Part shown: positions 22,480 through 24,429 of the stretch, piece after piece
How positions within the stretch are numbered: the first letter of the stretch is position 1
Layout of the letters: each line of letters begins with the position of its first letter
Origin: Halorubellus sp. JP-L1
Lineage (GTDB): Archaea; Halobacteriota; Halobacteria; Halobacteriales; Natrialbaceae
Direction: 5' to 3'
NCBI RefSeq assembly: GCF_011440375.1
Contig: NZ_JAAOIR010000001.1
Location: 1,550,001 to 1,614,000, forward strand
Length of the DNA stretch: 64,000 nt
Notes under the pieces: generated by a model
Told to the model about the DNA's origin: nothing
Seen by the model: only the letters and a program-made list of their open reading frames with translations
The model's database searches: none
Position numbers and translations under genes: made by a program

Positions 22480-22707
22480 TTATTCTACCACGAGTCGGTA
22501 TACGGTCGCCGTGTCTGTCGTTCGCGAATCTCGAACGATCTTCAGTACGTCGCCGACGCTCGCCTCGTCGGGCAGCGCCGGGTCCTTCCGTTTGATCTTC
22601 GGCAGGTCGGTACGGTCGATATCGTACGCTTCGAGCACCTCCTCGAGTTTGGCCTCGTCGAGGAGCGTGTGCTCTGGCACGAGTTCGTGTTGGCTTACAT
22701 CTACCAT
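22480..22707 (-). CDS. rpoH: DNA-directed RNA polymerase subunit H
   Basis: This 75-residue subunit (Rpb5 C-terminal homologue) contains the family core [24 protein letters not shown] and [12 protein letters not shown]. It contributes to the polymerase jaw around downstream DNA. It is the first gene of rpoH-B''-B'-A'-A''-nusA, in which all gaps are three bases or fewer or are overlaps. The start is ATG 22707 ([11 protein letters not shown]). An open extension upstream runs into tRNA-Asp and is not coding. Confidence 0.95.
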
Positions 22708-22770
22708 GAGTGTGTCTGGCGGGCGGGAGAAACTGCTGTCACGAGATACTACAGGCTCGTACAGGCGCGA

Positions 22771-22782
22771 GGCATTTAACGC
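22771..22782 (-). promoter_or_regulatory. Promoter of RNA polymerase operon
   Basis: The minus-strand sequence GCGTTAAATGCC lies about 70 bases before ATG 22707, implying a leader of some 45 bases. This is longer than for most genes here and leaves room for post-transcriptional control of polymerase synthesis (inference). A second AT-rich box, ATTTATGGG on the minus strand near 22890, could be an upstream start. Confidence 0.5.
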
Positions 22783-22972
22783 TTGCCAAGTCCGATTGCG
22801 GCGTCGCCACTCGCTCGACCCGCCAGAGGGCAGCGGGCGGCACGACGGGCCGACAAACCTGATTCGAACTAAGGACGCTTCCCCCATAAATCGTTTGTGC
22901 CACGATGCACACACCCACACCCGCCACGAGTAGAAAGCCTTAATCGTCCAACCGCGATACGTGGTATTGCAG

Positions 22973-23045
22973 GCCCGGGTGGTGTAGTGGCCCATCATAC
23001 AACCCTGTCACGGTTGTGACGCGGGTTCAAATCCCGCCTCGGGCG
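22973..23045 (+). tRNA. tRNA-Asp (GTC), copy 1
   Basis: This is a complete 73-base cloverleaf. The acceptor is GCCCGGG / CTCGGGC with discriminator G. The anticodon loop CTGTCAC gives GUC, and the T loop is GGTTCAAATCC. CCA is not encoded. It is identical over all 73 bases to copy 2 at 23784. A TATA-like CCTTAATCG lies about 30 bases upstream. A stem-loop and a partial copy of its 3' end follow. Confidence 0.97.
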
Positions 23046-23048
23046 CTT

Positions 23049-23097
23049 TCTGACGACGACAAACCGACGAGCGAAGCGAGGAGTCTGTCGTCGTCGA
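23049..23097 (+). terminator. Stem-loop after tRNA-Asp copy 1
   Basis: CTGACGACGACA pairs with TGTCGTCGTCG around a loop containing GACGAGCGAAGCGAGG. The counterpart after the second tRNA-Asp unit (23987-24036) keeps the pairing with altered bases (GACGGCGAC / GTCGCCGTC), which suggests selection for the structure. A role in ending tRNA transcripts or in 3' processing is plausible. Confidence 0.5.
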
Positions 23098-23133
23098 AAC
23101 GCTACGTTTGAATTGAATCAGGGAGCGAGCAGA

Positions 23134-23167
23134 CGTGAGCGACCGTGGTTCGAATCCCCCTCGGGCA
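23134..23167 (+). repeat. Partial tRNA-Asp 3' end (echo) after copy 1
   Basis: GGTTCGAATCCCCCTCGGGC repeats the T-arm and 3' acceptor strand of tRNA-Asp without the rest of the gene. It ends 122 bases after the end of copy 1. Copies of tRNA 3' ends are typical footprints of integrase attachment sites; see findings for the constant spacing. Confidence 0.75.
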
Positions 23168-23268
23168 CTTTTCCAGCGATCAACGACTGAGGAGCAAAGC
23201 AGCATGCGTGTCGGCTTGGGCACCCGGTAGTTTAATACATTCGCGTGGTTTCCTGCGGAACAAAGAAC

Positions 23269-23691
23269 ATGCCTGTCGGGAATTCGAAATCTGTCGGAGA
23301 CGAGACGGAAGTAGCAATCCTACACGAGTTACTCGTCGCAGGGTGGAGCGTGTCAATTCCGTTTGGTGACAACGATAAATATGATCTCGTCGTCGATGAC
23401 GGTGAGGATCTCTACCGGATTCAATGCAAGACGGCATGGCGAAACAAAGTAGAAACTATCCGGTTTAATACGCACTCGCAAACGACGAAGAATGGAGAGT
23501 ATCACGAGTCGACGTACGACGAGGTAGCAGACGCTTTCATCGTCCGCTTTCCATACGATGGGCAACTCTACTGGATCGACGTTGAGGATGCGACCAAACA
23601 GAAGATGGAATTACGGTTCGACGCAGCTATCGATCACCCGTCAATAAACTGGGCATCCGAATTCGAGTTCGATCCGCACCGTTCCCTGTGA
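23269..23691 (+). CDS. PD-(D/E)XK nuclease-like protein (group I intron endonuclease type)
   Basis: This 140-residue protein has a PD-(D/E)XK-like core: a helix ETEVAILHELLVAGWSVSIP, then GDNDKYDLVVDD (the acidic D), then DLYRIQCKTAW (QxK in place of ExK). This matches my memory of the group I intron endonuclease family PF11645, not checked. Codon use is clearly less GC-biased than in neighbouring genes, so the gene is probably acquired. TTTAATAC at 23231-23238 gives a short leader before ATG 23269, preferred to GTG 23245. It lies exactly between two identical tRNA-Asp genes, which suggests a mobile or hitch-hiking nuclease. Its target, and whether it is active, are unknown. Confidence 0.75.
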   Translation: MPVGNSKSVGDETEVAILHELLVAGWSVSIPFGDNDKYDLVVDDGEDLYRIQCKTAWRNKVETIRFNTHSQTTKNGEYHESTYDEVADAFIVRFPYDGQLYWIDVEDATKQKMELRFDAAIDHPSINWASEFEFDPHRSL

Positions 23692-23745
23692 GGACCAGCG
23701 AGTCGCGACGCCGTGGTATCCCCCCGCACCGCCACATTGATTGAA

Positions 23746-23757
23746 AAGGTATAAAAA
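23746..23757 (+). promoter_or_regulatory. Promoter of tRNA-Asp copy 2
   Basis: AAGGTATAAAAA is a strong TATA-like box about 33 bases before the tRNA. It is AT-richer than the promoter of copy 1, so copy 2 has an independent promoter rather than a duplicated one. Confidence 0.5.
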
Positions 23758-23783
23758 GGGCAACCTCCTCCTATAATTTGCAA

Positions 23784-23856
23784 GCCCGGGTGGTGTAGTG
23801 GCCCATCATACAACCCTGTCACGGTTGTGACGCGGGTTCAAATCCCGCCTCGGGCG
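23784..23856 (+). tRNA. tRNA-Asp (GTC), copy 2
   Basis: This 73-base gene is identical to copy 1, with anticodon GUC, acceptor GCCCGGG / CTCGGGC and discriminator G. Both copies look functional. The perfect identity of the tRNAs, against diverged flanks, suggests recent duplication or gene conversion. Confidence 0.97.
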
Positions 23857-23948
23857 CTTCTTCCAGCGACCAACGAACGAGGAGCGTCGCGACGAGCGAG
23901 CGGTCGGTGAAAAACGCCGAAAAGGGATTCGAAGCGGGGAGCGAACCT

Positions 23949-23983
23949 CGTGAGCGACCGTGGTTCGATTCCCGCCTCGGGCG
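23949..23983 (+). repeat. Partial tRNA-Asp 3' end (echo) after copy 2
   Basis: GGTTCGATTCCCGCCTCGGGC repeats the T-arm and acceptor 3' strand; it ends 127 bases after copy 2. It is preceded by CGTGAGCGACCGT, as is the echo after copy 1. Its downstream stem-loop resembles the one that directly follows copy 1, as if the flanks had been exchanged by recombination. Confidence 0.7.
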
Positions 23984-24429
23984 CCCTCTGACGGCGACAA
24001 CGCGACGAGCGAAGCGAGGGGTCCGTCGCCGTCGAGGGAGAGACGAGTCCGAGCGGTTGCGGATGTGGGTGCCAGTTCGTGAGTGGTGGGTGTCTTCGTT
24101 GGCGGAGTTGGTGTTGGTGAGCGGCGCTGGCGGTGTGCGGTGCGTCGAAAAGTGTCAGAGGCGGTGGCGGTTGGGGCCACTTCCATCACGAAGCTGCCAC
24201 CGTCGGTCGACAGGTCGGTGTCCTCGGTGGATGACAGGGCGTCCCTGTCGACAGTTCGGCCTTGTCTCGGGTACGTATTAGTGGTCCCGGTGACTCAAGG
24301 AACTGTTTGAGGCTCCGTTCGCGTCGGTCTCGCCGGCTGGAGCGGGTTGTACGACCCTGGGAGTGGCCGTGTCCTAGTACGTGAAGGCGCGGGCTGTGGT
24401 TGAAGTGGGATGGGGCGGCCAGGCGGGGT
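23984..24429. other. Non-coding interval
   Basis: The first 55 bases hold a stem-loop (GACGGCGAC / GTCGCCGTC) with an internal GAGCGAAGCGAGG. The remaining ~390 bases have no convincing gene. Open frames there lack haloarchaeal codon bias, and no RNA gene was recognised. CGTATTAGTGG near 24276 could be a promoter-like element. Confidence 0.5.

Follow-up and report, generated by a model that had tools for sequence, protein, structure and literature searches.

The window analysed here is a 64,000-nt stretch of the Halorubellus sp. JP-L1 genome (contig NZ_JAAOIR010000001.1, positions 1,550,001 to 1,614,000), in which two tRNA-Asp genes stand on either side of a short PF11645 nuclease gene (Table 1). 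The two tRNA copies are identical, and the match between them runs to 82 nt with one mismatch. GC content is 0.52–0.53 around the nuclease ORF vs 0.59–0.65 on its left and 0.63–0.77 on its right. An Rfam scan of positions 22700–24300 returned the two tRNAs and nothing else, and the nuclease gene lies outside the intact tRNAs and not within a group I intron, i.e., it is not intron-encoded. The left neighbours of the tRNA-Asp are genes that we take to be rpoH, rpoB2, and rpoB1.

The 3′ flanks of the two tRNAs appear exchanged: the first tRNA and the hairpin behind it resemble the second echo and its hairpin (86% over 74 nt), and the sequence following the first echo resembles that following the second tRNA (88% over 25 nt). 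Thus, two elements of a first-pass annotation of this DNA, the identical tRNA-Asp genes enclosing a lower-GC PD-(D/E)XK-like gene and the swapped flanks, were recovered by ARAGORN and Rfam, composition, the PF11645 profile, and repeat comparison.

Table 1. Features of the tRNA-Asp/nuclease locus (positions within the window)
Feature	Position	Strand	Evidence or remark
rpoH-like gene, then rpoB2 and rpoB1	22480..22707	-	conserved left neighbour; marks the chromosomal tRNA-Asp site
tRNA-Asp(GTC), copy 1	22973..23046	+	ARAGORN; Rfam RF00005, 60.1 bits
Anticodon-stem pair of copy 1	23001:23015		A-T, the variant accompanying nuclease clade A
Terminator-like stem-loop directly 3′ of copy 1	23045..23102	+	inverted repeat
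Echo 1, partial tRNA-Asp 3′ end	23147..23167	+	repeat comparison
Repeat Y1	23171..23195	+	repeat comparison; 88% like 23861–23885
PF11645 (PDDEXK_5) nuclease gene, 140 aa	23269..23691	+	ORF; profile match; predicted homing endonuclease of I-Ssp6803I type
tRNA-Asp(GTC), copy 2	23784..23857	+	ARAGORN; Rfam RF00005, 60.1 bits; identical to copy 1
Anticodon-stem pair of copy 2	23812:23826		A-T, as in copy 1
Repeat Y2, directly 3′ of copy 2	23861..23885	+	repeat comparison
Echo 2, partial tRNA-Asp 3′ end	23962..23983	+	repeat comparison
Stem-loop 3′ of echo 2	23984..24035	+	resembles the stem-loop after tRNA copy 1

Family, fold, and active site of the nuclease

The profile comparison proposed in the first-pass annotation gave a clear answer: the window protein matched PF11645 with 123.6 bits and an E-value of 7.7e-36 (curated cut-off 26.1), and it matched I-Ssp6803I (PDB 2ost) by sequence with E 1.6e-6. 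An NCBIfam search with the same protein yielded no significant family. An AlphaFold2 model was built from 28 aligned sequences (mean pLDDT 87.8), and the best four matches to it in Foldseek were the four chains of 2ost, the first with E 3e-9 and a TM-score of 0.76. The active-site positions are conserved among the aligned relatives: E14 in 175 of the 176 rows with a residue there, D39 in 179/179, Q52 in 178/179, and K54 in 175/179. These are the counterparts of what we take to be the catalytic residues of I-Ssp6803I, and 2ost has Q where the PF11645 relatives have E14. With this predicted fold and the active-site E, D, Q, and K, the window protein fits the I-Ssp6803I type of PD-(D/E)XK nucleases. 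The median dN/dS over 66 nuclease pairs was 0.12, indicating strong purifying selection. A viral or plasmid vehicle was also looked for, and no relative turned up in viral contigs or plasmids.

PF11645 genes and their neighbouring tRNA genes

Across 292 sampled genomes of the class, scored for PF11645 at E ≤ 1e-8, the family was patchy and occurred in 137, a count in which some genomes scored as nuclease-less may hold decayed copies, as the weakest matches lay outside those listed. The 150 loci examined comprise 148 among the matches listed, the window locus, and the locus of a sister species. As many as 145 of them have a tRNA gene nearby, in most cases Asp, Asn, Pro, or Lys, vs a rough chance rate of about 0.7% per gene. 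Scripted placement, with the tRNA on the same strand either upstream or downstream, accounted for 140/150 loci (Asp 73, Asn 31, Pro 21, Lys 7, Gly 3, Ser 2, Leu 2, Tyr 1). The other five were given their tRNA by hand: L122 (Lys, 865 bp), L153 (Asn, on the other strand), L166 (Asn), and L120 and L127, where an intron-bearing tRNA-Arg(TCT) follows 24–27 nt downstream of the PF11645 gene (L120 read by eye). No nearby tRNA was seen at L098, L177, L179, and L180, or at L174, which lies at a contig start and was counted in the Asn class from the tree alone (genome G167). L177, L179, and L180 form a long-branch clade with no tRNA within the 3.4 kb examined and may have another target.

The nuclease subfamilies follow tRNA identity: when the tRNA labels, in 8 states, are mapped onto a tree of 177 proteins, 7 changes are needed, ignoring rows that have no such label. 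The distance from the nuclease gene to the tRNA upstream of it was 37–570 bp in the 106 loci measured. Each of the 31 named haloarchaeal relatives is preceded by a tRNA-Asp on the same strand, and in 28 of them the rpoH/rpoB cluster lies on the 5′ side of that tRNA; it is on the other side in L024 and outside the stretch in L014 and L033. The relatives and the 292-genome sample overlap, and some loci are therefore duplicated in the nuclease-tree and host-tree counts given here and below. At L171 (G203:C3:891348-894644), the PF11645 match adjoins an array of eight tRNA genes (Asp, Pro, Ser, Leu, Tyr) within 1.5 kb, possibly one belonging to a provirus or a plasmid. In the open-access literature, represented by titles and the openings of abstracts and with subscription journals mostly outside its scope, we found no report of tRNA-linked PF11645 genes in haloarchaea.

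Doubled tRNAs and exchanged flanks

The first-pass annotation had read the exchanged flanks as the trace of the element and expected an empty site to hold a single tRNA. tRNA-Asp 3′ echoes occur at 26/73 loci with an Asp-class nuclease vs 20/30 nuclease-less tRNA-Asp loci, the latter spread over 20 genomes that all belong to the window's family, and hairpins are shuffled without a nuclease as well, as read by eye in one such locus. Likewise, at least two tRNA-Asp copies were present in 51/73 genomes with and 120/217 without an Asp-class nuclease, a weak link (Fisher p 0.04, kinship ignored), and only 20/73 Asp-class loci have a tRNA-Asp on both sides within 1.5 kb. Because both features occur without the nuclease, neither the swapped flanks, which are generic, nor the doubled tRNA can serve as its signature, and neither expectation held.

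Partial tRNA-Asp 3′ ends recur in the window and in loci L182–L211, mostly 88–174 nt downstream of tRNA-Asp, with or without a nuclease. In G053, G063, G106, and G168, two tRNA-Asp copies stand 2.9–3.3 kb apart with other DNA between them and no PF11645 match among those listed; other inserts may use the same tRNA-Asp site.

The tRNA-Asp anticodon stem follows the nuclease clade

Two main forms of tRNA-Asp exist in the sample, differing in one anticodon-stem pair: A-T in 83/292 genomes and G-C in 193/292, with two genomes having both and 18 neither. Clade A nucleases go with A-T in 42/43 genomes and clades B and C with G-C in 29/30, together 71/73. The two exceptions are G068, where a clade A gene stands beside a third tRNA-Asp variant, and G248, where a clade B gene with an in-frame TAG stands beside A-T. 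The G-C tRNA beside clades B and C is simply the common form of the class, and A-T is also found in 38 genomes without an Asp-class nuclease (here and in the counts below, "without" means lacking a nuclease of that tRNA class). The link was first tested in the same loci in which it had been noticed, and the genome and genus tables behind the association counts for Asp, Pro, Asn, and Lys were compiled by hand.

Both nuclease kinds are held by 11 genera, and shuffling within genera gave a mean of 53.1 agreements and a maximum of 69 in 20,000 rounds vs 71 observed (p 5e-5). The host tree covers 68/102 Asp loci, namely those whose rpoB2 and rpoH could be reached, and 65 of these carry either A-T or G-C; in these 65, the stem pair changed 2 times on the nuclease tree vs 15 times on the tree of the adjacent rpoB2/rpoH genes. 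A control pair in the acceptor stem of the same tRNA changed 10 and 9 times, respectively (68 loci). The nuclease clade itself required 16 changes on the rpoB2/rpoH tree, i.e., it does not follow the host tree. Eight independent pairs could be drawn on the host-gene tree; 7 or 8 agreed and none was opposite (p 0.008–0.016). Furthermore, tRNA-Asp loci with at least two copies in the stretch were uniform at the stem pair in 51/51 cases. If nucleases of clades B and C attack A-T, they should be found near A-T genomes; among G-C genomes, they occurred in 26/61 in genera with A-T members vs 3/130 elsewhere (plain counts, kinship ignored).

Anticodon regions of the Pro, Asn, Lys, and Arg classes

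The anticodon region was compared in the Asp, Pro, Asn, Lys, and Arg classes. A non-standard tRNA-Pro anticodon stem was present in 20/21 genomes with a Pro-class nuclease vs 25/46 without one in the same eight genera (p 7e-4; within genera p 0.003), with "standard" defined after the data had been seen. Of 76 genomes, 67 entered this test: 12 lacked a pattern match, and three of these were restored from fetched loci. The one exception, G287, has its Pro nuclease beside a standard stem. The five Pro-nuclease genomes of genus g27 have one tRNA-Pro in common, with differences in the D and T arms as well, and the same altered tRNA occurs in seven genomes without a Pro-class nuclease. Here the replacement reaches past the anticodon arm and looks like that of a whole tRNA.

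In other classes the difference is an intron in the anticodon loop. It was present in tRNA-Asn of 24/34 genomes with an Asn-class nuclease vs 26/258 others (within genera p 5e-5) and in tRNA-Lys of 9/9 genomes with a Lys-class nuclease vs 12/283 without (within genera p 7e-4). The Lys count is 8/8 when G136 is left out, a pseudogene found by looking beside introns and included in the p-values. Both tRNA-Arg(TCT) cases, L120 and L127, have the intron. The ten intronless Asn-class genomes include G016, with a broken nuclease, and G281 and G008, with other stems. A search for relics in 36 genomes with a Lys or Asn intron and no known adjoining nuclease gave one clear case: the broken PF11645 gene at G136:C1:1161887-1162262, immediately upstream of a tRNA-Lys gene whose intron seems to have outlived the nuclease. 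Since introns and altered stems exist without the nuclease, an altered tRNA can outlast or precede it.

Empty and occupied sites

The first-pass annotation had made its proposal depend on relatives with an empty site. Such sites exist, and not all relatives carry the gene. One Asp-class empty site was examined in detail: L192 (empty) and L040 (occupied), from the same genus, are 97% alike through the tRNA, and the insert in L040 is about 485 bp, little more than the nuclease, with the 15-bp repeat CAGGGCACAGCCGAC on both sides. This insert lies downstream of the tRNA echo and not in the tRNA, and the stretch just after the tRNA differs between the two loci, too. In the window's own genus, the same site in a sister species has, between two tRNA-Asp genes, a nuclease 39–41% identical to that of the window. 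The two species are 88% alike over the left flank, both tRNAs differ in the stem pair only, and the segment between them differs apart from the distantly related nuclease.

An empty locus in g27, L226, has neither the tRNA-Asn intron nor the nuclease of L145, with outer flanks 91–92% alike. The tRNA-Met gene downstream of the Asn nuclease in g27 (compared in L110–L167 and L212–L227) has its common stem form in 0/14 readable intron-bearing nuclease loci (15 loci, one unread) and in 4/4 intronless nuclease loci, and the same or a one-base variant in 13/16 loci counted as nuclease-less. Because the tRNA-Met stem changes with the nuclease as well, the target of the Asn class in g27 is ambiguous. 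The segment differences in g27 and between the two species of the window's genus may reflect co-conversion of flanks. L221 (G203) had been classed among the nuclease-less loci, yet its alignment with L161 spans the entire nuclease stretch, and it may contain a copy; in L224 (G207), the intron is present and the nuclease absent.

Wherever at least 100 bp was available on either side of the gene, the locus was screened for flanking direct repeats. A general target-site duplication was not found in these loci, and most strong repeats were the tRNA itself. The Gly loci L130 and L139 have a 25-nt copy of the tRNA 3′ end after the nuclease, and L165 has a 98-nt repeat that includes a tRNA-Asn 3′ end.

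A probable homing nuclease of tRNA genes and alternative readings

These observations make it likely that the gene encodes a free-standing, not intron-borne PD-(D/E)XK homing endonuclease aimed at the anticodon region of tRNA-Asp and residing beside an allele that it spares. The enzyme probably recognises this region and cleaves whichever variant is absent from its own chromosome. Adjacency to tRNA genes, tRNA-specific clades, patchiness, empty sites, covariation of nuclease and anticodon region, fold, and active site all emerge from comparison; DNA cleavage, the cleavage site, and homing by break repair are what we infer. As far as sequence data can tell, the patchy presence of PF11645, its empty alleles, and its departure from the host tree fit a free-standing homing endonuclease. 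The first-pass annotation had suggested a minimal mobile nuclease gene carrying a replacement tRNA, and this is partly supported: it was right in outline, for other reasons. The patchy distribution, the empty sites, and the agreement of clade and stem in 71/73 genomes speak for it; the swapped flanks and doubled tRNA as its trace had to be given up.

Under the proposed mechanism, a clade A nuclease would cleave any resident genome that carries the G-C stem variant; repaired from nuclease-bearing DNA, this genome would acquire the nuclease. The A-T allele of tRNA-Asp, ignored by the enzyme, would be copied along with it or selected afterwards. The rival clades B and C, at the same site with the G-C allele, would have the converse specificity, and paralogous subfamilies would act alike at other tRNA genes, where escape could come from other stem changes (Pro) or an anticodon-loop intron (Asn, Lys, Arg). 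An intron cannot protect the mature tRNA; thus, protection, if any, acts on the DNA (or the precursor).

It is conceivable, though rather unlikely, that nuclease and tRNA variant merely share one exchanged segment, so that the nuclease is mobile but cuts elsewhere, for instance in the tRNA 3′ flank, and the anticodon change protects nothing. In the window's genus, the segment between the tRNAs does differ as a single block from one of the two species to the other, the L040 insert has its 15-bp flanking repeat downstream of the tRNA, and in g27 the downstream tRNA-Met changes as well and the Pro nuclease goes with a tRNA-Pro altered in several arms. The last of these slightly strengthens plain linkage and slightly weakens the homing interpretation. 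The Asp acceptor pair, one side of which lies between anticodon and nuclease, nevertheless showed 10 vs 9 changes where the stem pair showed 2 vs 15; this control argues against plain hitch-hiking for Asp, which the g27 Pro case does not. Mere linkage also sits poorly with the fact that tandem tRNA-Asp copies are never mixed (0/51) and that what changes in the Asn, Lys, and Arg classes is the presence of an anticodon-loop intron.

The strong purifying selection (median dN/dS 0.12) and conserved chromosomal position of the Asp class would suit a resident guard, kept by the host at tRNA genes to destroy integrating elements or foreign tRNA genes. A guard should hardly be present in only 137/292 genomes, change clade 16 times on the rpoB2/rpoH tree, or be represented by different clades at one site within a genus, and we consider this role very unlikely. 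We give still less credence to a toxin or defence nuclease that cuts the anticodon arm of mature tRNA, with the adjoining allele as a resistant replacement. Covariation of the adjoining anticodon arms with the gene would follow from it, but the introns of Asn, Lys, and Arg are spliced from the mature tRNA and would give no protection there, and the modelled fold and the active site match those of a DNA homing endonuclease. Least credible of all are remnants of cargo from tyrosine-integrase elements inserted at tRNA 3′ ends, with the echoes as attR-like scars. Echoes of tRNA 3′ ends do lie near many loci, including the 25-nt copies at Gly loci L130 and L139, but they are at least as common without the nuclease (20/30 vs 26/73), and what distinguishes close empty sites is the nuclease gene together with short surrounding stretches.

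Returning to the homing endonuclease, its relatives may together constitute a guild of homing nucleases for tRNA genes, each tRNA having its own subfamily, in which reciprocal lineages contest one tRNA gene via a single stem pair and the introns of Asn, Lys, and Arg arose or persist as marks of immunity; on this broader picture our judgement is evenly balanced. Such tRNA-targeting nucleases may explain the introns in some haloarchaeal tRNA genes, as a covarying nuclease family offers a cause for archaeal anticodon-loop introns and paired stem substitutions. If this is true, essential tRNA genes across an archaeal class have been shaped by selfish genes, and the family would offer nucleases whose target and one-base-pair escape are readable from the genome.

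Comparison with known systems

The closest known system is I-Ssp6803I, the endonuclease of the group I intron in the tRNA-fMet gene of Synechocystis, which shares with the window protein the fold, the E/D/Q/K positions, and the size and, like the haloarchaeal nucleases, is linked to the anticodon region of a tRNA gene. It is, however, encoded inside a self-splicing tRNA intron, whereas the haloarchaeal genes are free-standing, are associated with several tRNAs, and have a stem pair or a short intron as the difference at the site.

Free-standing homing endonucleases near tRNA genes, co-conversion, and collaborative homing have been described before (PMC2988022). According to the part of that article considered here, T4 SegB in a tRNA region and the collaborative or trans homing of MobE involve a free-standing gene near its target, as proposed here, and co-conversion of flanks, which may also occur in the haloarchaea. 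These enzymes belong to other superfamilies (GIY-YIG, HNH) and to phage genomes, and the same part of PMC2988022 describes no series of tRNA-specific subfamilies.

Archaeal tRNA introns have been proposed as protection against integrating elements, which may themselves bring the intron (PMC3293823). As far as the portion of PMC3293823 used here goes, the intron in that model blocks the attack of a mobile element, as in our reading of the haloarchaeal genes. The model concerns integrases and att sites in Caldiarchaeum, whereas in haloarchaea a nuclease family stands beside the intron-bearing genes, and an empty allele exists without both.
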